A program made the translations under genes and the position numbers. Below are positions 2,551 through 43,516 of a DNA stretch of 64,000 nt, piece by piece. The notes under the pieces are model-generated. The model did no database searches. It was given only the letters and a program-made list of their open reading frames with translations, and had not been told where the DNA came from. The DNA comes from Spirochaetota bacterium (GTDB taxonomy: Bacteria; Spirochaetota; UBA4802; JAFGDQ01), in assembly GCA_034190085.1 (NCBI GenBank), contig JAXHTS010000068.1, forward strand, positions 1-64,000, written 5' to 3'. Every line of letters begins with the position of its first letter. The stretch's first letter is position 1.

Positions 2551-3678
2551 ATGATTAATGAAGTGAAGACAATAACTGATAGAAAGATATTTGAAAAAAT
2601 GCTTAATAGGTTTTATATTGATAATACGGTTTTTATTAAACTGGAAAATCGTAACATTGAAGTTAAGCTGATTAGTTGTTTAGGAGGATTGGTAGTAATC
2701 AAGCTTCCCATTGTAACAGATGTGCCGGATAACTCTTTCATCTTTACAAGGTGTGGTGATAATATCATATACTCTTATTTAAGGTTATGCGAGAGGAGAT
2801 CAAGGGATATATTTGTGTTTAATCCTGTGATGTTTCAAATAGTGATCGCTGCTAGAAAAGAAGTGAGGAGTATGATGAATATCAGTGGGGAGAAAAAGTG
2901 GTTGATATTTGCCACTAACATCGTATCTGATTTTGTTTTAAAGAGATCCCTTATCCTTGAGAGCAAAAAGATAGACCGCATAAGAGAGATAATAGAGTAT
3001 AATAAGGGCAAAGAGTATAAATATATGAAGATTCATTTTTGTAGTGAAGGGAAAAATAATGATGCTAGGATGAACTATTTTTATAATGAGAGGACTCCGA
3101 TCTTCATTTCAGATTTGAATAATGAACAGATGATTTCACAGCATAACTTTTATATGAGAAATATATATGCTAAGGACAGTTGCTTAATGGGTAGAAGGGA
3201 GCTTATATCAGAGGTATCAGTTCCTATCCTCTATAATGCGAATATTCCTTATGGATACATCCAAGTGAATGACACAGCGCCATTTAATAGATCGAGTCTT
3301 CATTCAGTAAAGAGAATAGTGAATTTAATCGAAGAGTTAAGTGTGGAATTCAACATATTTCATGTATCTGAGGAGAGATTACTCGTATCTGATGTGTCGA
3401 AAGGGGGATTAGGGATAGTTTTTCGAGATAAGAAACTAATTCCCCAATATAAGGAAGATAGCTATGTCTCTTTAGATATGTTGTTGCCTAAGAGTAAAAA
3501 GGCTTCTATTTTGGCTGGCGTCAGACATATCGATATGCTGGCTAATAAGATCATTAAGATAGGTTTTGAGATCAAATCAATGGACGACATAAGCACAAGT
3601 AATTATGCTAAATTTTTAAGCCTTATTGATAAGAGCGCAACTCCTTCTTTAGAAAGGAGAGGGGAGAGGAGTGTCTGA
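2551..3678 (+). CDS. DUF1577-like protein with PilZ-type C-terminal domain (possible c-di-GMP responder)
   Basis: The 375-residue soluble protein has no signal peptide. The N-terminal ~100 residues look like a PilZN/YcgR-N type beta domain, the middle (about 110-280) has GAF-like alternation, and the C-terminus (about 285-350) carries a PilZ-like core with DVSKGGLGIVF followed about 55 residues later by IKIGFEI. PilZ domains bind cyclic-di-GMP through an upstream RxxxR and a D/NxSxxG motif. Here DVSxGG is present but the RxxxR is not obvious, so binding is uncertain. The overall architecture recalls DUF1577 proteins of Leptospira, which is one reason for the spirochaete assignment. AAGGTG before the ATG supports the start. 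It is monocistronic and converges on the DUF362 gene. Confidence 0.5.
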   Translation: MINEVKTITDRKIFEKMLNRFYIDNTVFIKLENRNIEVKLISCLGGLVVIKLPIVTDVPDNSFIFTRCGDNIIYSYLRLCERRSRDIFVFNPVMFQIVIAARKEVRSMMNISGEKKWLIFATNIVSDFVLKRSLILESKKIDRIREIIEYNKGKEYKYMKIHFCSEGKNNDARMNYFYNERTPIFISDLNNEQMISQHNFYMRNIYAKDSCLMGRRELISEVSVPILYNANIPYGYIQVNDTAPFNRSSLHSVKRIVNLIEELSVEFNIFHVSEERLLVSDVSKGGLGIVFRDKKLIPQYKEDSYVSLDMLLPKSKKASILAGVRHIDMLANKIIKIGFEIKSMDDISTSNYAKFLSLIDKSATPSLERRGERSV

Positions 3679-3742
3679 CCAACTATATAGTTGATGAAAA
3701 GTATTCTATATATTTTGATTTTTTATGCCGTGGTAATCAGGT

Positions 3743-3774
3743 TCCAGACAGGGAGGGAAAACCTCCACTTTGGA
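3743..3774. terminator. Hairpin between convergent genes
   Basis: GGAGG (3752-3756) pairs with CCTCC (3762-3766), and flanking TCCA (3743-3746) pairs with TGGA (3771-3774), forming an interrupted stem in the 99 bases between two convergent genes. It may serve both strands. No U-tract is seen on either side. Confidence 0.3.
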
Positions 3775-3777
3775 CTA

Positions 3778-4590
3778 TTATATTTCTATTAGCTCATAGT
3801 TGGTGTTTCCTAAATCATAGGCTTGCGCCAAGCTAATGTATTCAATATCAACAGGATCTTTATTTAACAATTTCTTTTCTCCCAGTTCCTTTAATAATTT
3901 AAATCCATATGAATCAAGGGCTACGGGATCTTTTCCCGCAAACATAATACCTAATTTTGCTATGTAACCCCCATGTCTGATCTCATTGGCATTTAAGAGC
4001 ACCTCTATGCCGTCTACTATAAAGAGATCAGTTCTTACAGTGTAATTGATATTCGCAATGCATCTGTTGATAAGCCTGTGCTTTATATGATATTTTAATC
4101 TATGAAAATTAGATAAATAGCCGAATTGATTTTTCAAGGCACATGTAATGCCTATATTCTTTAATTTATGCGCTTTCAATATTGGTAGAGAAATAATATA
4201 ATCACAGGTTAAGGGTATTGTTGATATCTTTAATTTTAATTGTCCATCTGAGTTGGTGTTAAAAACCTTTTTGGGATATTTATGAAGATTCAGCAGTTTA
4301 ACATTATGCTTAGCGCAAATATCCTTTATGATATGATATTTTATTACACTTTGTGGCCTCGCATCTAAAGCTGGGCCGTCTCCTACAACCAATTCTCTAT
4401 CAGATTTTGTTAAAAGGGATAAAACAGCATCCAGCGTTTCAATGTGTGTTGTGGTAGGATATTCCTCTCTGGAAACAATATTTGGCTTTACTAAAATTCG
4501 TTTCTTCCACCTTATCTCCTCTTCAAATATATGTAGTATTTCCTCTACAAAGGATTTTCTTTCTATTGTTTTTCTATAATATATTTTCAT
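3778..4590 (-). CDS. DUF362 domain protein, no ferredoxin tail
   Basis: The 270-residue cytoplasmic-type protein has the conserved DUF362 landmarks: ILVKPNI near residue 33, GDGP around 70, a LPILKAHKLKNIGITCALKNQFG-like core around 135-157 (shown here only as the family signature), DGIEVL near 195 and GKDPVALD near 220. Many DUF362 proteins continue into a 4Fe-4S ferredoxin domain and occur near electron-transfer genes. This one stops before any Cys cluster. No catalytic activity is established for the family that I can assign here. No Shine-Dalgarno sequence precedes the ATG. It stands alone on the minus strand. Confidence 0.8.
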   Translation of the reverse strand: MKIYYRKTIERKSFVEEILHIFEEEIRWKKRILVKPNIVSREEYPTTTHIETLDAVLSLLTKSDRELVVGDGPALDARPQSVIKYHIIKDICAKHNVKLLNLHKYPKKVFNTNSDGQLKLKISTIPLTCDYIISLPILKAHKLKNIGITCALKNQFGYLSNFHRLKYHIKHRLINRCIANINYTVRTDLFIVDGIEVLLNANEIRHGGYIAKLGIMFAGKDPVALDSYGFKLLKELGEKKLLNKDPVDIEYISLAQAYDLGNTNYELIEI

Positions 4591-5120
4591 GATCTACATT
4601 ATCGTAGTATATAAGGATAGTTGGTAATGACATGGATAAAAAAGGTAATTATTGAAAGAGTCAACAATAATTTAATTGTTAAAAACTGAAGCCCTAGGAT
4701 ATGTTGAAAGTATCTATAGACCTGGAGCTCTTGTCCCATTTCATTGAAGCGATACACTCTCAGTTATTATTAATACATTACATTTCGGGAGCAGGGATAG
4801 AAAATCGATAGAATTTTTTTCTATCCTCCTATTTATTAAACATTACACTCATATATTCATAAAGACGACATTTATTACATTCTGCTTCAATACAAATCGA
4901 TTTCTTTAATCGCAAAGTGAAGGATTGTATGGAATACTGCTTTACGAATTTTCTTAATAATGATCTATATGTTGACAATTCATCAATATCAATAAACATA
5001 TATTACTGACCAGGAAGCTAAGAAGAATTTGTGCTCATCCATCCTATCTTAAATATTTGATAATAGAGGAAGAGGTCAAATAATTAAACAATACTGCTTA
5101 GAATGTCAATGGAGTAATTG
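4591..5120. other. Intergenic region between divergent genes, no gene seen
   Basis: About 530 AT-rich bases between the divergent DUF362 and amidase genes. It should hold both promoters. The only clear structure is the stem at 4795-4826. Confidence 0.5.
4795..4826. other. 10-bp inverted repeat with T-rich loop
   Basis: GGATAGAAAA (4795-4804) is complementary to TTTTCTATCC (4817-4826) over a 12-base loop. It lies in the middle of a divergent intergenic region, so a terminator role is not obvious. It could be an operator-like palindrome or a chance structure in AT-rich DNA. Confidence 0.25.
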
Positions 5121-34809: not shown

Positions 34810-35859
34810 ATGCTAAACATAGAGAGGCTCACGAGTATAAGCTGTAAGGCTACAGGCATAGGTAGTGTGCCCCATACAGATGTTGATGTAATATGCGACA
34901 TGATTTTAGATAAGTGCGGGGATCTCCCTTATTGGCCTCAGTTGGCCAATATAGATTTACGGGAGGAGATGATGATTCAGTATAGTGAAAACCTCCCCTG
35001 CATAAGGTTTTCCTTAGGTGATAAGGATGTTCATCTCGACTCCTCATCAGATAGGGAAGAGGGGTTAGTTGAGTTTTATGAACATTATATTAATAGTGAT
35101 TATGATTATTTTAAGATTAGTCGAGACTATGCCAGAGGATTTTATACTCTGCTTGAAAAATCAGAAAAGAGGGATAACCCCTTTATCAAGGGGCAGATTG
35201 TAGGTCCAGTTACATATCTTTATTCAATTCTGGGAGAAGATGGAAAACCCCTCATTCATGATGACTCGATGTCAGATGCCATTATTCGGGGTTTGGCCAT
35301 GAAGGCAGTGTGGCAGGCTAAGGAGATCAGAAAGATCAACAAGGAACCAGTCATTTTTTTTGATGAGCCATCCTTAGCTGGTTTTGGCTCTGCATTCATG
35401 TCCCTTGAAAGGGATAAGGTTATGGCTATATTTGAAAAACTTATTGATACAATAAGGGAGCATGAGGAAATATTGATCGGCACTCACTGTTGTGGCAACT
35501 CGGATTGGGATATGATACTAGGGACAGGTATTGATATCATAAGTTTCGATTCCTATGCCTTTTCAAAGTACTTTGTGCTCTATCCAGATATTATCGGTAA
35601 ATATTTGGAACGGGGTGGCATCGTTGCCTGGGGCGCAGTTCCTACAGTAGAATACAATGATGATGTTACTATAGATGACCTAATCAAGAGGTTAGATGAT
35701 GCGCTCGATATATTAGTAAGCAAAGGGATTGAGAGGGAGTTGCTATTCCGCAATTCATTAATCACCCCTGCCTGTGGAATTGGATTATTAACTGAAAAGG
35801 CTGCAAATGAGGTTATTGGTTTGACCTCAGCTATTGCAGAACATATGCGCCAGCATTAA
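34810..35859 (+). CDS. MetE-like C-terminal-domain protein, candidate core methionine synthase
   Basis: The 349-residue TIM-barrel protein of the UROD/MetE superfamily corresponds to the catalytic half of MetE only. The opening GIGSVPHTDVD, the Zn-site His-Cys pair in GTHCCGN (about residue 225) and the late Cys in ITPACGIG (about 320) match the zinc ligands that activate homocysteine thiol in MetE. The folate-binding N-terminal half of MetE is missing. Stand-alone 'core' MetE proteins described in archaea and anaerobic bacteria take methyl groups from a corrinoid protein, and the B12 uptake genes just upstream fit this. The family also includes uncharacterised members, so the substrate is inferred. 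It lies 205 bases past btuB. Confidence 0.65.
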   Translation: MLNIERLTSISCKATGIGSVPHTDVDVICDMILDKCGDLPYWPQLANIDLREEMMIQYSENLPCIRFSLGDKDVHLDSSSDREEGLVEFYEHYINSDYDYFKISRDYARGFYTLLEKSEKRDNPFIKGQIVGPVTYLYSILGEDGKPLIHDDSMSDAIIRGLAMKAVWQAKEIRKINKEPVIFFDEPSLAGFGSAFMSLERDKVMAIFEKLIDTIREHEEILIGTHCCGNSDWDMILGTGIDIISFDSYAFSKYFVLYPDIIGKYLERGGIVAWGAVPTVEYNDDVTIDDLIKRLDDALDILVSKGIERELLFRNSLITPACGIGLLTEKAANEVIGLTSAIAEHMRQH

Positions 35860-36287: not shown

Positions 36288-36839
36288 ATGACAATAAAGG
36301 ACATGTTTAAGAAAAAGAAGGATGAATTTGACCCGATAAAGGATTTAATCCTATCCAAACTCTGCGTGGGGTATTTAGTTGATTATGATTTGAAGACCTG
36401 GAGGGTGACAGAATATAATCATTACGACTTTGGGGAGGGATATGAGGCTGACGAGTGGGAGTTGATTTCAGGACGTGAGAGATGGTATCTTGAGCGGTCT
36501 GAAGATGATAATGTGGAGTGGACATTCTCGCAAAAGATTCCTATTGGAGCTGTTGAGGGTAATATTAGACACTATATAATGCAAAATGATGATCCTCCAG
36601 AAAGAGTAATATGCCAGGAGAGACATTATACTATGGATGAATCAGGCACAGGCTTAATGTATGAGAATAACGAGCCCCCGCCAAAGGAGTTTATCTATTG
36701 GGATTATATTGATGAGAAGGATGAACACTTCTTGACTATTGAGCAGTGGGGAGAGACAGAATTTGAGGCTGCAATAGGTTATTATGTCGAAGAGTATCAA
36801 TTTACCAATATCCTGCCCGGGGATCCTGAAGAAGAATAA
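36288..36839 (+). CDS. DUF4178 protein (PspA-operon member)
   Basis: The 183-residue soluble protein is acidic and aromatic, with the DUF4178 pattern: VGYLVDYDLKTWRVTEYNHYDF, then WELISGRERWYLE, later YWDYIDEKDEHFLTIEQWGETEFEAAIGYYVEEYQF (landmarks only). It is expected to be a beta-barrel-like fold. The family occurs beside DUF350, spermidine-synthase-like and PspA genes in many bacteria (the E. coli relative operon is yjfIJKLM, with YjfK in the comparable slot). Biochemical function is unknown. First gene of the operon; the next GTG is 26 bases past its stop. Confidence 0.75.
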   Translation: MTIKDMFKKKKDEFDPIKDLILSKLCVGYLVDYDLKTWRVTEYNHYDFGEGYEADEWELISGRERWYLERSEDDNVEWTFSQKIPIGAVEGNIRHYIMQNDDPPERVICQERHYTMDESGTGLMYENNEPPPKEFIYWDYIDEKDEHFLTIEQWGETEFEAAIGYYVEEYQFTNILPGDPEEE

Positions 36840-36864
36840 ATCAGTTTATTTTGGAGATTTTATC

Positions 36865-37578
36865 GTGAAAAAAATGGTAATATTTATTATCTTTATTCTA
36901 ACTGCTCTCTCCTGTTCAACATCCTCCCCGATTGATCGCATGAAGCATGATTTGAATAGATACTCAGAATATACAATTATGTTGCAGGATATGAAGAAGG
37001 ACGGCAATTTCTTCCCAAGTTATTACCATCGATACAAAATTGTATATGCTGATGATACTGGGACAGAAGAGGACCCTGTATACCAGAGTGAGATTACAGA
37101 TTGGCATAAGGTCGATAAGAGGACCTTTTATGATTATTCCAATTTCTTAGGCATGGTTGTAGCCTCAAAAACCCGGGACGGGGGCATTTCAGATTCTCAA
37201 CATCCGCCAGGTTATCAATATGTGGGGAATCCGAGGTATGGACAATGGAGAAACGATTCACGCGGTGGCTCATTCTGGGAATTTTACGGAAAGTATGCCA
37301 TGTTGAGCACTGTCTTGGGGATGTTTCGTCGCCCAATATATCGGGGTGATTGGGATAATTACCGCAGATACAGTTCATCGGGGAGACCCTACTATGGCCA
37401 GAACAGAGAGTATGGCACCAACGGTTCATATACTAAACAGACCAATAGGTCATTTTTCCAACGTCGAAGAGAGAGAGACCTTGCAAGAAGAACCCGTTTT
37501 TCTGATCGGGTTGGGAGTCGAGTGCGGCGCAGCAATATGAGCGGGTTTAGAAGACGCAGCTTTGGATTCGGTAAGTAA
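36865..37578 (+). CDS. Lipoprotein with Arg/Gly/Tyr-rich tail (PspA-operon member)
   Basis: The 237-residue predicted lipoprotein has a KKM start, hydrophobic segment and LTALSC lipobox (Cys about residue 19). The middle contains repeated Tyr and Trp-rich segments (NFLGMVVASKTRDGG, GNPRYGQWRNDSRGG) and the last ~80 residues are strongly basic and low-complexity (RRYSSSGRPYYGQ, RRRERDLARRTRF, RVGSRVRRSNMSG, RRRSFGFGK). GTG at 36865 is chosen because TTGGAG lies 8 bases upstream; the ATG at 36874 is too far. In E. coli the comparable slot is held by the DUF1190 protein YjfM. No activity can be assigned; the tail may bind acidic lipids, polysaccharide or nucleic acid. Confidence 0.65.
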   Translation: MKKMVIFIIFILTALSCSTSSPIDRMKHDLNRYSEYTIMLQDMKKDGNFFPSYYHRYKIVYADDTGTEEDPVYQSEITDWHKVDKRTFYDYSNFLGMVVASKTRDGGISDSQHPPGYQYVGNPRYGQWRNDSRGGSFWEFYGKYAMLSTVLGMFRRPIYRGDWDNYRRYSSSGRPYYGQNREYGTNGSYTKQTNRSFFQRRRERDLARRTRFSDRVGSRVRRSNMSGFRRRSFGFGK

Positions 37579-37676
37579 AACCAGTAGTAGTTGATCAATC
37601 TTCAGTCCACAGATGTGCATATCAATTTGTATTAGCGTAGCTTATTATCTAGAATAAAATGTTTTAAGGAGCAATC

Positions 37677-38522
37677 ATGCTATTTGATCAAATTATAACC
37701 GCGCTTATATATCTCGTTGCTGTTTTAGCAATATTATTTCTTGGCAAATGGGTGTATGATAAACTAAATCCAAGATTTAATCTTAAGGTAGAGCTTGTAA
37801 AAAATGACAATTTTGCTCTTGCCCTTGCCGTTGTTGGATATTTTCTGGGACTAGTCTTATCCATAGGTGGGATATTGGATGGACCATCATCAGGTTGGGC
37901 TGAGGATGTAATTGATATATTCTTTTATGGCATAATCTCAATAGTTCTTCTGAATATCTCCATTATTATAAATGATAAAATAATACTATATCAATTCGAC
38001 AATATAAAGGAAATTATTCAAGATAAGAACGCAGGCACAGGTATTGTGGAAGCGGCCAATCATATTGCAATGGGGCTTGTTATGTATGGTGCTGTCTCTG
38101 GTGAGGGGGGAGACCTGATTACACTGACAGTCTTCTGGATTGCTGGGCAAATTGTTCTTATTTTAGCAGGGCTTATTTATAACTGGATCATCCCTTATGA
38201 TATGCATGAACAGATAGAGAAGGACAACGCTGCTGTGGGGGTTGCCTTTGCCGGTTTAATTATAGCAATCGGGAATATTATTCGTATAGGTCTTAGCGGA
38301 GACTTTATCTCCTGGCAGGAGAACTTTTACACATTTGGGAGTTTCGTTATTTTTGGATTAATTTTGCTCCCCATCATCAGGTTTGTAGCAGATAAAATAC
38401 TTCTTCCAGGGGAACATCTAACAGATGAACTTATTAATCAGGAGAATCCAAATATCGGTGCAGCCGCAATTGAGGCATTCTCATATATAGGAGCATCATT
38501 TCTGATCGGATGGGTTTTATAA
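37677..38522 (+). CDS. Inner-membrane protein with two DUF350 domains (YjfL-like)
   Basis: The 281-residue integral membrane protein is a tandem duplication of DUF350. Each half has a hydrophobic four-helix pattern and the signature region: NDNFALALAVVGYFLGLVLSIGG (about 43-66) and KDNAAVGVAFAGLIIAIGNIIRIG (about 182-205), each followed by FxSW/GWAEDVIDIF-type and FVIFGLI-type helices. It is the counterpart of E. coli YjfL, of unknown function. AAGGAG is 7 bases before the ATG. Only 19 bases separate its stop from the spermidine-synthase-like gene, so the two are an operon pair. Confidence 0.85.
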   Translation: MLFDQIITALIYLVAVLAILFLGKWVYDKLNPRFNLKVELVKNDNFALALAVVGYFLGLVLSIGGILDGPSSGWAEDVIDIFFYGIISIVLLNISIIINDKIILYQFDNIKEIIQDKNAGTGIVEAANHIAMGLVMYGAVSGEGGDLITLTVFWIAGQIVLILAGLIYNWIIPYDMHEQIEKDNAAVGVAFAGLIIAIGNIIRIGLSGDFISWQENFYTFGSFVIFGLILLPIIRFVADKILLPGEHLTDELINQENPNIGAAAIEAFSYIGASFLIGWVL

Positions 38523-38541
38523 TTAGCGAAAAAGGTGAAGA

Positions 38542-40149
38542 GTGAGAGTCAACTCCTCTGTTAGGACTTCAAAATTGAATAATGAAGCAGACTCACAGGG
38601 TGAAAAAATTCGTGTTGGCCTCAGTTTCGTGTTAAAGGCTTGCATCTTCACAACAGGTTTGGCCGGTATTGTTGCCGAATATGTTATGGCAACCATGGCC
38701 AGTTATCTCTTGGGGAATGCTGTTTTACAATGGGCGCTTACTATTTCGTTAATGCTCTTTGCTATGGGTATTGGTAGTTGGCTTAGCAGATATATTCAAC
38801 CTCCCCTTCTAGATTCCTTTATTGCAGTAGAGTTTATACTCTCCTTATTATGCTCAATTAGCGCTGTTTTTGTATATTTCTTCTCTGTTCATATCCAGAA
38901 TATTGCTTCAATTATTTACTTGATAGCAATTGGGATCGGCATATTGATTGGTTTAGAAATCCCCCTCGTCACTCGCCTTAATAATTATTTTGAAGAATTA
39001 CGCATTAACATCAGTTCAGTGATGGAGAAGGATTATTATGGCGCCTTATTTGGCGGGCTCTTGTTTATTTTTCTTGCCTTGCCTTATTTGGGTTTGACTT
39101 ACACACCACTGGTGTTAGGATCAGCCAACTTCTTAGTCGCTTTTACATTATTTATTGTAAATCATAAAGCGCTACAATTCAAAAGAGGATTAACTGCCCT
39201 ATCCATAGCCATACCATCAGTTATAATACTCCTCTTTTTCTTCGCAGAGCCGATTATCCTCTATGGCGAACAGAGCAAATATGTTGATCGCATTATATAT
39301 GCTGAGCAGACTCGGTATCAGAGGATTGTTCTTACTCAGTGGAAGGATTATAATTGGTTGTATCTGGATGGGAATGAACAGTTCAGCAGTTATGATGAGG
39401 AGAGATATCATGAGCCACTTGTACACCCTGCTATGAATCTATGCGTTTCTCGCAGGAATGTTCTTATATTGGGCGGCGGTGATGGCTTGGCTGCACGAGA
39501 GGTTTTGAAATATCCGGATGTGAAGAAGCTGGTTCTAGTGGACATAGATCCTGCCATGACGAGGCTTGCCATGGAAAATCCGATATTACTGCGGCTAAAC
39601 AGGAATTCCCTCAAAGATAAAAGGGTCAGTATATTAAACGAAGATGCCTACATCTTTTTAAAGAGAATTGATTCCCTTTTTGGAGTGATTATTATCGATT
39701 TTCCTGATCCTAAGAGCGTAACAACCGCGAGGCTTTATTCACGGCAATTCTATCACCTTGCATCTCGACATCTAATAAGGGGGGGAGTGATGGTGACGCA
39801 GGCCACAAGTCCGTTTTTTGCCAAACGTGTATTCCTTTCAATTTTAAAGACCATGCGATCGGCTGGTATTTCTGCAATAGCCTATCATAATCATATACCA
39901 ACATTAGGCGAATGGGGTTGGGTGTTAGGATTTAATGTTACAGGAATATCTTCTAGCCAGTTAAAAAAGATGCTCGGAGGTATAGAATTCCCTGAAATCG
40001 ATACAAATTTTTTGAATAGGGAAGCGATGTTGAGTATGCTGAATTTCGGAAAGGGTATGCTGGATGAGCTTGACGAAGTAGAAATCAATGACGAGATGGA
40101 TCTCTCCATTTATCACTATTATCAAAAGGGTTCCTGGGATATATATTAG
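38542..40149 (+). CDS. Membrane-embedded spermidine-synthase-like aminopropyltransferase
   Basis: The 535-residue protein has seven or so N-terminal TM helices (about residues 27-240) fused to a SpeE-like catalytic domain (about 255-480). The catalytic half shows YQRIVL, DGNEQFSSYDEERYHEPLVH, the SAM-site GGGDGLAAREVLK, DIDP and IIIDFPDPK, where soluble SpeE has DSSDP, so the polyamine-binding Asp pair is partly changed. It may make a polyamine or an aminopropylated product at the membrane. Soluble SpeD/SpeE partners are absent here. GTG start, with AAGGTG 4 bases upstream; 19 bases after the DUF350 gene. Confidence 0.85.
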   Translation: MRVNSSVRTSKLNNEADSQGEKIRVGLSFVLKACIFTTGLAGIVAEYVMATMASYLLGNAVLQWALTISLMLFAMGIGSWLSRYIQPPLLDSFIAVEFILSLLCSISAVFVYFFSVHIQNIASIIYLIAIGIGILIGLEIPLVTRLNNYFEELRINISSVMEKDYYGALFGGLLFIFLALPYLGLTYTPLVLGSANFLVAFTLFIVNHKALQFKRGLTALSIAIPSVIILLFFFAEPIILYGEQSKYVDRIIYAEQTRYQRIVLTQWKDYNWLYLDGNEQFSSYDEERYHEPLVHPAMNLCVSRRNVLILGGGDGLAAREVLKYPDVKKLVLVDIDPAMTRLAMENPILLRLNRNSLKDKRVSILNEDAYIFLKRIDSLFGVIIIDFPDPKSVTTARLYSRQFYHLASRHLIRGGVMVTQATSPFFAKRVFLSILKTMRSAGISAIAYHNHIPTLGEWGWVLGFNVTGISSSQLKKMLGGIEFPEIDTNFLNREAMLSMLNFGKGMLDELDEVEINDEMDLSIYHYYQKGSWDIY

Positions 40150-40162
40150 TATTCAATAGAAA

Positions 40163-41182
40163 ATGAATTGGCTTCGACAAATATTACTATTCATGCGAAG
40201 GGAGAAGCTGCATAGGTTAGCTGTGTATATTATCCTAATTATTACAGCTAGTACCCTAATTTTACCCCTATTTGAATCTGATGTTTCCTTGACAAATGCG
40301 CTCTGGTGGAGCATCGTTACGTTGACTACTGTTGGTTACGGGGATATCGCGCCTGCGACACTGGGTGGAAGAATTATTGGAATATTTATTATGTTCTTCG
40401 GTATTGGCATACTTGGAATGTTTACTGCTACCGTTGCCAGTATTTTTATTGAGAGAAAACAGAAAGAAGAGAGGGGTATGAATTCGTATAAATTCGAAAA
40501 TCATATTATTATTTGTGAATGGAATCATAGGGCGAGTGATATTTTATTAGAACTGCGTAAGGCCTACCGGATTGGGAATGCGCCTATAGTATTGATTGAT
40601 GATATACAGATGAAACCCGTTGATGATGAGAACCTTTTCTTTATTCAGGGGGATGTGAGTGATAATAACTTAAGAAGAGCAAATCTTGAAAAAGCAAGCA
40701 CAGTTATTATTTTGGGGGATGATAAGCTGGACGCAAGCGCAAGGGATGCCAGGGTAGTGCTTACGACCCTCACGGTTGAGAGTATAAATCCAAATGCATA
40801 CACTATTGTTGAGCTTGTGGATATTATAAATGTGCCGCACTGTGAGCGCGCAAATGCCAATGAAATAATTGTAGGGAGCGATTTTAGCAGCAAGCTCATA
40901 TCCCGAGCCGCTGTGGATCATGGAATTTCAAAGGTATTATCTGAGTTGTTAACTTCTCGAATGGGCAATGATCTCTTTAAAATACCTGTCCCAAAATCTC
41001 TGGAGGGACTTACTTTTATTGATGTCTTTACTGAGATGAAGCGCGTTAATAATAGCATTGTTTTAGGAATACAGAAGGGAAGCGATGGCATTGTTAAATC
41101 GAATCCGCCTGTGGACTTTCTAGTTGAAAGTGGGGATTCCTTGATATTGATCAAGGAGGGTAAACCCTCTTCTCAATTATAA
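40163..41182 (+). CDS. Two-TM potassium channel with RCK/TrkA-N and TrkA-C domains
   Basis: The 339-residue ligand-gated channel has TM1 (VYIILIITASTLILP), the pore with the selectivity filter TVGYGD, TM2 (GIFIMFFGIGILGMF), then a cytoplasmic RCK (Rossmann) domain and a TrkA-C domain ending near residue 335. The Rossmann loop reads IICEWNHRASDIL, lacking the usual GxGxxG, so the nucleotide is probably not classic NAD. Potassium or other cations would move out of or into the cytoplasm on a signal. It begins 13 bases after the aminopropyltransferase stop and lacks a Shine-Dalgarno sequence, consistent with coupling. Polyamines are known blockers of K channels, a suggestive but unproven link. 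Confidence 0.9.
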   Translation: MNWLRQILLFMRREKLHRLAVYIILIITASTLILPLFESDVSLTNALWWSIVTLTTVGYGDIAPATLGGRIIGIFIMFFGIGILGMFTATVASIFIERKQKEERGMNSYKFENHIIICEWNHRASDILLELRKAYRIGNAPIVLIDDIQMKPVDDENLFFIQGDVSDNNLRRANLEKASTVIILGDDKLDASARDARVVLTTLTVESINPNAYTIVELVDIINVPHCERANANEIIVGSDFSSKLISRAAVDHGISKVLSELLTSRMGNDLFKIPVPKSLEGLTFIDVFTEMKRVNNSIVLGIQKGSDGIVKSNPPVDFLVESGDSLILIKEGKPSSQL

Positions 41183-41359
41183 AAATGAGGAAAATTATTG
41201 GCTTCCAGTGCCAGTTCCCACGTGGGTAGTTATCAATTTTACTCCCTTTGAAAAATCAATCTGAGATATTATGAAGAAGTTGACAAAAGAGATTAACTAT
41301 GCTTACCTTCCTGAACAGAGACTATAAGATTAGGAAATAAGCATGAGGAGGAATAAATT

Positions 41360-41755
41360 ATGTCCGAGAATCTTAATAAGGTTAAGAATTATCTTCTCGA
41401 TTTGGAATTAAAAATAATCGATGAGAATGAACCTGAAGAATTGGTGGTAGTTGAGGATGAAGAGAATGGAATAAAAAATCTGGTTATTGACTGTGAATCA
41501 CCAATTGTTATACTTGAGCAATTGATCATGGAGGTTCCAAAGAATACGGAGGAATTTTTCAAGCGGTTATTGCAGCTAAATCGAACCCTGGTTCATGGGG
41601 CCTTTGTCCTTGATCAAGAATGTAGATATGTATTCTTCAGGGATACGCTTCAACTGGAAAATCTGGATCTTAATGAGCTTGAGGGATCTATAGGGGCTTT
41701 AACTCTTGCATTGGCAGAGAATGGAGCTGAATTATTAGAATATTCAAAAAGGTAA
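41360..41755 (+). CDS. Small acidic YbjN/CesT-like protein (PspA-operon member)
   Basis: The 131-residue acidic protein looks like the small two-layer fold of YbjN and type III chaperones: EELVVVEDEENGIKNLVIDCE (start), a helix ending at MEVP, then LNRTLVHGAFVLDQECRYVFFRDTLQLENLDLNELE and the closing helix EGSIGALTLALAENGAELLE (landmarks split across strands). Position beside pspA mirrors YjfI (DUF2170) next to YjfJ in E. coli, so a regulatory or chaperone role toward PspA is likely. AGGAGG is 8 bases before the ATG. It is separated from the channel gene by 177 bases and from pspA by 19. Confidence 0.65.
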   Translation: MSENLNKVKNYLLDLELKIIDENEPEELVVVEDEENGIKNLVIDCESPIVILEQLIMEVPKNTEEFFKRLLQLNRTLVHGAFVLDQECRYVFFRDTLQLENLDLNELEGSIGALTLALAENGAELLEYSKR

Positions 41756-41774
41756 TATATTTAAGGAGGCAAGA

Positions 41775-42485
41775 ATGGCAGGTATATTTCGAAGAATGTT
41801 TAAGGTGGGAGAAGCGGAAGCGCATGCTGTTATTGATAAATTGGAGGATCCGATAAAGATGACTGAGCAAGGAATTCGTGATCTTAAGAAGGATTTGCAG
41901 TCAGCAATGAAAAGCCTGGCTGAGGTTAAAGCTACTGCAATTCGACTGAAAAAGGATGGCGAGGATCAGAAGAAGCTGGCTTCAGATTATGAAAGGAAGG
42001 CAATGTTACTTCTTCAAAAAATGCAGAATGGAGAATTGGATCAGAATGAGGCTGAAAGATTGGCCACAGAAGCCCTTTCCAAGAAGGATGAGGCATTGAC
42101 AAATTCCGAAAGACTTCTAACAGAACATAAGCAAATACAGCAGACAGCGGACCAATTACAGGTGAAGGTTGGAAAATTAAAGCAATCCATAACCGGATAC
42201 GAGAATAATCTGGTTACTCTAAAGGCACGAGCGCGTACTGCGTCCTCAATGCGTAAGATAAATCAACAGATGTCTAAGGTGGATTCATCTGGCACGATTG
42301 TTATGTTGGAAAAGATGAAGAATAAAGTAGAGGAAGAGGAATCGCTAGCCGAGGCCTATAAGGATATTGCTGATGCAAGTCTTGGTATTGACGAGGAGAT
42401 CAATAAGGCGATAGAAACATCTTCTTCTGCAAAGGCTACCCATTCTCTGTCAGAATTAAAAAAGAAAATGGGAATAGAAGGGTAG
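41775..42485 (+). CDS. pspA: PspA/IM30-family membrane-stress protein
   Basis: The 236-residue protein is long alpha-helical coiled coil with the PspA start MAGIFRRMFKVGEAEAHAVIDKLEDPIKMTEQGIRDL (first 37 residues, shown as a landmark only). It belongs to the ESCRT-III/IM30 family, forming rings and rods that bind stressed inner membranes and reduce proton leakage. The IM30 amphipathic N-terminal helix is short but visible (GIFRRMFKVG). AAGGAGG is 6 bases upstream. No pspBC or pspF is present; the partners here are DUF4178, DUF350, the aminopropyltransferase and the channel. Confidence 0.93.
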   Translation: MAGIFRRMFKVGEAEAHAVIDKLEDPIKMTEQGIRDLKKDLQSAMKSLAEVKATAIRLKKDGEDQKKLASDYERKAMLLLQKMQNGELDQNEAERLATEALSKKDEALTNSERLLTEHKQIQQTADQLQVKVGKLKQSITGYENNLVTLKARARTASSMRKINQQMSKVDSSGTIVMLEKMKNKVEEEESLAEAYKDIADASLGIDEEINKAIETSSSAKATHSLSELKKKMGIEG

Positions 42486-42505: not shown

Positions 42506-42532
42506 TCACCCATCAGTATATCTGATGGGTGA
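42506..42532 (+). terminator. 11-bp perfect hairpin after pspA
   Basis: TCACCCATCAG (42506-42516) pairs perfectly with CTGATGGGTGA (42522-42532) over a TATAT loop, 20 bases past the stop. No U-tract follows (AATTACAT), so termination may rely on other factors, but position and strength suggest the operon end. Confidence 0.6.
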
Positions 42533-43516
42533 AATTACATCTATCTTCTCGAATTTGTTTATCCCTACCCTTTCAAATTATACTTATAGATAAATTTTAA
42601 TACAATTATTTCTTATGAATGATGTATTCCCCTATGCATTTTGCACGGAAGAATGCAAAACTATAAACTCTGAAGAATCATTCTCTCATTGATTTTTACT
42701 ATTATAATATTCCTCCACCCATCCCCTTCTTGAGCAAGCCTCAAATGTATCGGTATATGACATGAGATATCAGAAGGTATGACTGAACATCTATGACTCT
42801 TCTATAGAATACTCATTTAATCCAATAAAATATAATAATCTTGTATATTATCCGCACGATCCAGATGGATCGAATTTATCTTAATATTGACTCTCTTCCT
42901 ACCGAGAATGATAGTATAGAAAAAATATAGGTTCAGTTCTCTAACAACAGCTCAGGATTGTAATGGATAATAAAATAGTAGATTTGCTTACTTATAAGAT
43001 AGAAAAATCTCTTAAAAAAAATGGTTATACAGTCAAGAAGGATAAGAAAAAAAATGTAAAACTTCTTATTAAAATAAGCAAGAAGTAAACATTTTAGTCT
43101 TCAGAAAATTGTAGAATTATATTCTACATTATTATACCCTATTATACCATTTCCAATTTACATAGAATTATTGATTTATTTACATAAATATCATTTTGAT
43201 ATCCATATTGCAGAATAATTGATAAAAATTATTATCATTTATGCTTATTCATCCCTGCCCTAGCCTACTATGCAGTTGTAAGATACAAAACTTGGATTTT
43301 TACTTAGCAATGAGTGGGATATCTTAATAGTAAATTAAGCTGCTAAAACCTGAATGGTACTATTTAAAAGTAAAAGAATATAAAAAATCGGTTGCCTTCT
43401 TTATTATAAATTATCTAATATCTATATGTAATAGAAATATCTGTATATTATTTTACATGCAGAAAGATGTTATTTGATTTAAGGATTCTATCAATTTATA
43501 AGATTATTGAGGTAGT
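42533..43516. other. Long AT-rich intergenic region
   Basis: About 980 bases with one small ORF candidate (42963-43088) and small palindromes such as CGATCC/GGATCG near 42855-42872. Otherwise nothing is recognised. The promoter of the DUF1015 gene is expected at its right end. Confidence 0.4.
42963..43088 (+). CDS. Possible 41-residue Lys-rich small protein
   Basis: ATG at 42963, AGGA five bases upstream, stop at 43086-43088. The peptide has the form MDNKIVDLLTYKIEKSLK then KNGYTVKKDKKKNVK and LLIKISKK, i.e. 15 of 41 residues are Lys, with alternating hydrophobics. It could be a small DNA- or ribosome-associated protein, or a chance frame in AT-rich DNA. No relative is recognised. Confidence 0.35.
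   Translation: MDNKIVDLLTYKIEKSLKKNGYTVKKDKKKNVKLLIKISKK

Follow-up and report, generated by a model that had tools for sequence, protein, structure and literature searches.

We analyse here a stretch of 64,000 nucleotides from contig JAXHTS010000068.1 (called the window below; all gene positions follow its forward-strand numbering), and in particular a seven-gene PspA-type operon in it that encodes a membrane-bound aminopropyltransferase (APT). Our main result is that nearly every APT locus of this kind encodes one protein, secreted or in the membrane, whose tail is rich in Gly/Ser and has an exact Gly-Lys end (GK tail), and the counts given below establish this pairing of tail and enzyme statistically. 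In the window the partner is a lipoprotein with the C-terminus ...RRRSFGFGK. We consider it reasonably likely, judging from the sequences, that the APT attaches an aminopropyl group to the terminal lysine of its partner, within a PspA/DUF350 envelope response. We also lean, slightly, towards the wider view of a widespread modification, in which membrane APTs of the PRK03612 type aminopropylate dedicated GK-tailed envelope proteins, in parallel to the ATP-grasp ligases that put spermidine on the Gly-Gly end of DUF1190 proteins. For specialists, the surprise will be the correspondence between tail and enzyme; the operon itself is near a known class. No earlier description of the GK tail was found in the open-access literature, subscription papers being beyond that scope, and the correspondence is apparently undescribed so far.

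The features of the window on which the argument turns are the following.

36868-37578, + strand: lipoprotein with an Arg-rich disordered tail ending SFGFGK-COOH, the proposed acceptor (lipobox and terminal GK invariant; tail pLDDT < 50)
37570-37575, + strand: codons of the terminal Gly-Lys, the proposed modification site, with the stop codon at 37576-37578 (GGATTCGGTAAGTAA at 37564-37578)
38542-40149, + strand: membrane-bound APT with an N-terminal transmembrane (TM) region and a C-terminal spermidine-synthase domain at residues 233-462 (NF002956, PF01564)

The Gly-Lys tail and its pairing with the enzyme

The lipoprotein belongs to no family in Pfam or NCBIfam, and a profile search gave no relative in the PDB. 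Its lipobox Cys16 and C-terminal Gly235-Lys236 are invariant among 17 aligned homologues, and the Gly/Ser/Arg-rich tail is disordered in the AlphaFold2 model. As listed, the open reading frame (ORF) opens at ATG 36784. The start is most likely GTG 36868 instead, because a start there would yield a signal peptide with the lipobox LTALSC. A search of this genome for further ORFs ending in GFGK gave no other candidate.

A contig scan of genomes with the APT as query gave 80 loci, and the wider set examined comprises 118 APT loci. The usual tail pattern has Arg near position -19, Ser near -16 and Gly at -6. Strict GK tails are carried by 71 of the 2852 ORFs that share the strand of the APT and lie no more than 3 kb away from it, and by 5 of the 9862 other ORFs of these loci; exactly one is present in 70 of the 80 loci. 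A GK-ended partner is found in 95 of the 103 APT loci that are positive for DUF350 versus 4 of the 15 that are negative (Fisher P = 8e-8; the loci are related by descent, so P values here and below overstate independence and are guides only). Among the eight DUF350-positive loci without such a partner, one lies at the end of a contig, and in five the expected place is taken by an ORF that nevertheless ends in Lys (HGK, SHK, RVK, HHK, NDK). In the control, canonical speE loci of related genomes, a GK-ended envelope protein is seen in 2 of 30 cases, both chance-looking.

The tail is found on at least five protein bodies, namely two kinds of small single-TM protein, a lipoprotein of 250-300 residues, a DUF4178-TM protein (Clostridia, Ktedonobacter) and a 2TM protein (Pseudoalteromonas). 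The possibility that all GK tails belong to one conserved protein was considered and rejected, since these five bodies (at least five members each) and a number of singletons share no detectable similarity outside the tail. We have also searched for homologues in a tail-blind manner, using profiles without the last eight residues against all ORFs; the homologues of the first three families end in GK in 27/27, 23/23 and 18/18 cases, 68/68 in all. The DUF4178-TM and 2TM bodies carry the tail as a fusion. Many relatives of both are without it, and these are mostly found in loci with a separate small GK protein. For the 2TM type, a GK-tailed protein is present in 43 of 45 loci, either as a fusion or on its own; the two others are L115, which is the same place as L022 (a locus that has one), and L147, which ends in RVK. 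A hydrophobic segment is present in 92 of the 99 tail proteins, and the small ones that were tested are covered by neither Pfam nor NCBIfam. By its distribution, the tail can be described as a module.

Some variants of these arrangements were observed. Five clostridial loci (L072, L078, L085, L095, L108) have the GK tail linked to the DUF4178 domain via a TM segment, and their DUF350 is split into two adjacent short genes of 68-93 aa. The APT operon of the Novosphingobium plasmid p1 (L145) includes SPFH, two DUF4178 proteins, DUF350, an FAD-dependent oxidoreductase and speD, and its 48-aa membrane peptide ends in PSHK, with the final Lys retained and the preceding Gly lost. PRK03612-type APTs without a nearby GK tail also occur (L163 (G067), L164 (G077), L157-L160), some of them adjoining photolyase-like genes; part of this family has another context and probably another acceptor. 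G077 has a GK-tailed lipoprotein and DUF350 at a separate place (L027).

The enzyme, the proposed reaction and the alternatives

The APT of the window scores 566 bits against NF002956/PRK03612 (cut-off 472), its PDB matches are spermidine synthases, and its N-terminal half is hydrophobic according to the hydropathy profile. Against the canonical spermidine synthase model TIGR00417 it reaches 130 bits, below the 249.55 needed. In an active-site alignment of 98 tail-linked APTs and 30 canonical SpeE proteins of related genomes, the GGGDG motif and Y289, H290, D336, D368, D386, D389 and Q420, i.e. the catalytic residues and those on the side of decarboxylated S-adenosylmethionine (dcAdoMet), are essentially invariant in both. 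Other positions conserved in SpeE are altered in the tail-linked APTs, which have Phe or Leu in place of the Tyr of PTYxG (455), Thr for Glu422 and Leu or Phe for Ser387, and which have lost the N-terminal Trp. As far as the alignment can tell, donor and catalytic residues are thus retained and acceptor residues changed, which suggests that the enzyme is not a maker of free spermidine.

The genome also has two tandem speD genes and one canonical speE, and no match in it to PF03738, the GSP_synth ligase, was found. At L030 (G000:C75:14000-24000, 3119-5024), two speD genes (AdoMet decarboxylase) stand in tandem beside canonical speE, and a Leptospira replicon (L153) has a similar speD-speD-speE arrangement; one of the two tandem copies may have a different decarboxylase function.

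We infer the chemistry of the reaction, its place and timing, and its role in physiology and stress as follows. The APT would move the aminopropyl group from dcAdoMet onto the C-terminal lysine of the partner. At the end of its side chain lysine has the same (CH2)4-NH2 group as putrescine, and the modified side chain would therefore bear a spermidine skeleton, comparable to deoxyhypusine. The modification would probably take place before or during export of the tail. The modified lipoprotein would then present a polycationic tail at the envelope, and this tail could, together with DUF350, DUF4178, CesT and PspA, be read or used in protection of the membrane; the RCK potassium channel of the operon would be an optional arm tied to CesT-PspA. 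Membrane-fused APTs are common, and the GK rule gives a concrete acceptor candidate in nearly every DUF350-linked operon. It predicts a single mass shift of +57.058 Da at one residue, which is directly testable in bacteria.

It has to be pointed out that a number of observations weigh against this reaction. The pairing is by itself no proof of catalysis. Two loci (L065, L146) have DUF350 and APT with no recognisable tail, three (L075, L091, L155) have the tail with DUF350 undetected, and some PRK03612 enzymes are without both and must therefore act otherwise. With a canonical speE in the genome, the polyamine supply is independent of the membrane APT. The donor dcAdoMet is in the cytosol whereas the lipoprotein leaves it, which would require the modification to occur ahead of export or together with it. 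Finally, Lys-terminal lipoproteins can be joined to peptidoglycan, and the genome encodes a YkuD enzyme.

Another option is that spermidine, or some unusual polyamine, is produced in free form by the APT close to the membrane and that PspA and DUF350 sense its level, while the GK tail only docks onto the enzyme or regulates it. In favour of this, the APT domain is truly homologous to spermidine synthase and has the catalytic Asp residues. However, the acceptor-side residues of canonical SpeE are altered in it and the genome already has a canonical speE, and a docking role leaves unexplained why the final residue is Lys and why the partners of the ATP-grasp ligase end in GG (see below). We regard this option as unlikely.

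The terminal Lys could also be an anchor, by which an L,D-transpeptidase joins the tail to peptidoglycan in the manner of Braun lipoprotein, with the APT either lengthening the arm or acting independently. The chemistry of Braun lipoprotein is established, the lipobox Cys and terminal Lys are invariant in the lipoprotein family, and the YkuD enzyme just mentioned would be at hand. The operon, on the other hand, is without an L,D-transpeptidase, the tail also occurs in Clostridia, in Chloroflexi and on TM proteins of the inner membrane, and it follows the APT, not cell-wall genes. An anchoring function is on these grounds rather improbable.

The operon and its potassium channel

Seven same-strand genes had been claimed at 36288-42485, and all of them were found there by profile matches and ORFs. 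The locus is a real bacterial envelope-stress operon, most of which is catalogued already. Its remaining features are given here.

36288-36839, + strand: DUF4178 protein, 183 aa, predicted cytosolic, no TM segment (PF13785, E 5e-24; hydropathy)
37677-38522, + strand: tandem DUF350 membrane protein, 281 aa (two PF03994 copies)
40163-41182, + strand: 2TM RCK potassium channel with TVGYGD filter (PF07885, PF22614, PF02254, PF06241; MthK, E 8e-27)
41183-41359, + strand: channel-CesT gap, 177 bp, possible separate start of a CesT-PspA unit (gap table)
41360-41755, + strand: CesT/Tir-like chaperone, CesT_Tir_1 (PF22550, E 2e-49)
41775-42485, + strand: PspA/IM30 protein, the sole full PspA of the genome (PF04012, E 1e-41)

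The chaperone gene, adjacent to that of PspA, had been described as YbjN/CesT-like; the CesT part of this name holds, while the YbjN match (E 7e-4) is under the cut-off. By matches above curated cut-offs, PspA, DUF350 and the membrane APT have one copy each in the genome. The AlphaFold2 model of the DUF350 protein is all-helical with a mean pLDDT of 92. Foldseek found nothing in the PDB at E < 0.001 for this model or for that of the lipoprotein, and neither fold therefore points to a function. None of pspB, pspC and pspF is among the operon genes, the rest of the genome not having been searched for PspB/C/F.

The intergenic gaps are, in gene order, 28, 98, 19, 13, 177 and 19 bp. Given the gap of 177 bp before it, CesT-PspA may form a second unit with its own promoter. 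In several relatives (L031, L032, L040) the channel-CesT gap is still wider, which suggests a conserved regulatory region. A sigma-54 promoter search of the window gave 26 matches versus 19.5 expected, which is not significant, and sigma-70 promoter-like sites in it are at chance level. Directly past pspA, at 42509-42534, there is a near-perfect hairpin, CACCCATCAG-TATAT-CTGATGGGTG, with no T run after it; it is a possible 3' end of the transcript. The flanking genes, for a TonB-dependent receptor, a DUF1015 protein and a product with no Pfam match, are outside the system. Beside the receptor, a 349-aa ORF (34810-35859) with no Pfam match at E 0.1 resembles, judged by eye, proteins of the methionine-synthase/UroD type.

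The neighbourhood survey for conserved order shows that the gene set recurs together in Calditrichota, KSB1, Acidobacteria, Binatia, Nitrospirota and Marinobacter, a recurrence that is above chance. The original prediction is supported in that the operon is conserved, is of the PspA envelope type and includes both a channel and a polyamine-type enzyme. The nearest APTs, with 54-63% identity, are from metagenome-assembled genomes of Calditrichota, KSB1 and Acidobacteria, in several of which the complete order DUF4178-lipoprotein-DUF350-APT-channel-CesT-PspA is kept. In Binatia, a lipoprotein-DUF350-APT half and a DUF4178-PspA-CesT-channel half are on opposite strands and face each other, and in Nitrospirota and Marinobacter the channel-CesT-PspA block stands first. 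CesT is missing from nearly all genomes of the window's own order, with few weak matches only; this rarity and the affinity to Calditrichota suggest that the operon may have been acquired horizontally.

We now come to the channel. It shares with MthK, its best match, the 2TM + RCK layout and the TVGYGD filter, and of the Ca2+ ligands of MthK, E210 is kept (E217), E212 is replaced by Val219, and the alignment at D184 is ambiguous. An RCK channel is present in 19 of the 32 APT loci with CesT/PspA versus 1 of the 86 without (Fisher 1.5e-12; several phyla). Its divergence correlates with that of PspA with r 0.94, and with that of the APT with r 0.76. These counts and the arrangements in Binatia, Nitrospirota and Marinobacter show the channel to be a true recurrent member of the operon, attached to CesT-PspA and not there by accident.

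The channel is found in 20 of the 118 APT loci as compared to about 99 with the GK tail, and the idea that the tail goes with the channel was rejected since most tail loci are without a channel. The prediction that K+ flux is gated by or against polyamines likewise finds no support: most APT loci lack the channel, which follows PspA more than the APT, and the kept donor site and altered acceptor site of the enzyme speak against free spermidine as a product. A channel gated or blocked by APT-made polyamines, possibly with the polyamine-bearing tail as a tethered blocker, would fit with its recurrence in the operon and with the polyamine block of K+ channels that is well known in eukaryotes, but the same counts and correlations make it very improbable.

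Comparison with known systems

Ravi et al. (2024, PMC11237479) have described CesT/Tir-PspA operons, a second group of which has a spermine synthase-7TM protein, an 8TM DUF350 protein, a lipoprotein (Ctha_1186 domain) and DUF4178; in a third group, a potassium channel accompanies an ATP-grasp ligase, DUF1190 and DUF2491. An example of the APT operon given in that paper is AAN56744-AAN56747, from Shewanella oneidensis. The window operon has the gene set of the second group, from the same families as far as the text of that paper describes them: the CesT/Tir-PspA pair, the TM-fused spermine synthase domain, DUF350, a lipoprotein and DUF4178 are all present. What it adds is the RCK channel, named in that text for the third group only. 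Of the other third-group features, GSP_synth was not found, and DUF1190 and DUF2491 have no Pfam match among the operon proteins. The operon is in other words the published second class with the channel of another class. In the authors' proposal, systems of this kind keep watch on polyamines or on 'aminopropylation of other substrates'; on a lysine, a glycine or a GK terminus of the second-group lipoprotein, the text that describes it is silent (PMC11237479).

The E. coli loci yjfIJKLM-yjfC and ygiB-ygiC also have a CesT/YjfI-type protein, PspA, DUF350, a lipoprotein with a Gly/Ser/aromatic tail and a polyamine enzyme. They differ in that an ATP-grasp ligase takes the place of the APT, and that the DUF1190 partner usually ends in GG, not GK. 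The partial match to yjfIJKLM that the original prediction had noted is thus borne out, while its view of the APT and the channel as additions to that group is only partly right, since the APT operon is a separate published class (PMC11237479) and the ATP-grasp class has a channel of its own (Rhizobium). The RefSeq name of YjfC/YgiC is peptide--spermidine ligase, which can be traced to Pederick et al. 2023 by the title cited in PMC12270671. Nine of the 12 partners (DUF1190-type) in the ATP-grasp operons end in GG and none in Lys. The GG ends are HWGG in YjfM and SMGG in YgiB of E. coli, SMGG in Klebsiella, SFGG in Rhizobium and Paracoccus, SWGG in Vibrio, GFGG in Sulfitobacter and Bacillus, and SSGG in Acinetobacter; the non-GG partners are those of Asticcacaulis, Tsukamurella and Azospirillum. 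With GG partners going with the ligase and GK partners with the APT, the last residue varies according to the enzyme, offering a carboxylate to the ligase and an amine to the transferase. If the proposed aminopropylation is real, there would be two chemistries by which an envelope-stress protein receives a polyamine at its C-terminal tail.

Membrane-fused spermidine-synthase-like APTs that cluster with DUF350 were reportedly noted by Li et al. in 2019, who are said to have suggested an acceptor other than putrescine, the acceptor itself not being identified, and to have found that such fusions fail to complement an E. coli speE deletion. The APT of the window is of the same enzyme class, and a specific acceptor candidate is proposed here.

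A known parallel to the proposed product is hypusine or deoxyhypusine on eIF5A, a cytosolic factor in which an internal Lys receives an aminobutyl group from spermidine. In both cases a polyamine-type group would be carried by a protein lysine. The reaction proposed here would differ in that an aminopropyl group from dcAdoMet is moved onto the C-terminal Lys of an envelope protein. If it is true, bacteria would have a hypusine-like modification, and polyamine chemistry would be tied directly to membrane protection of the PspA type.

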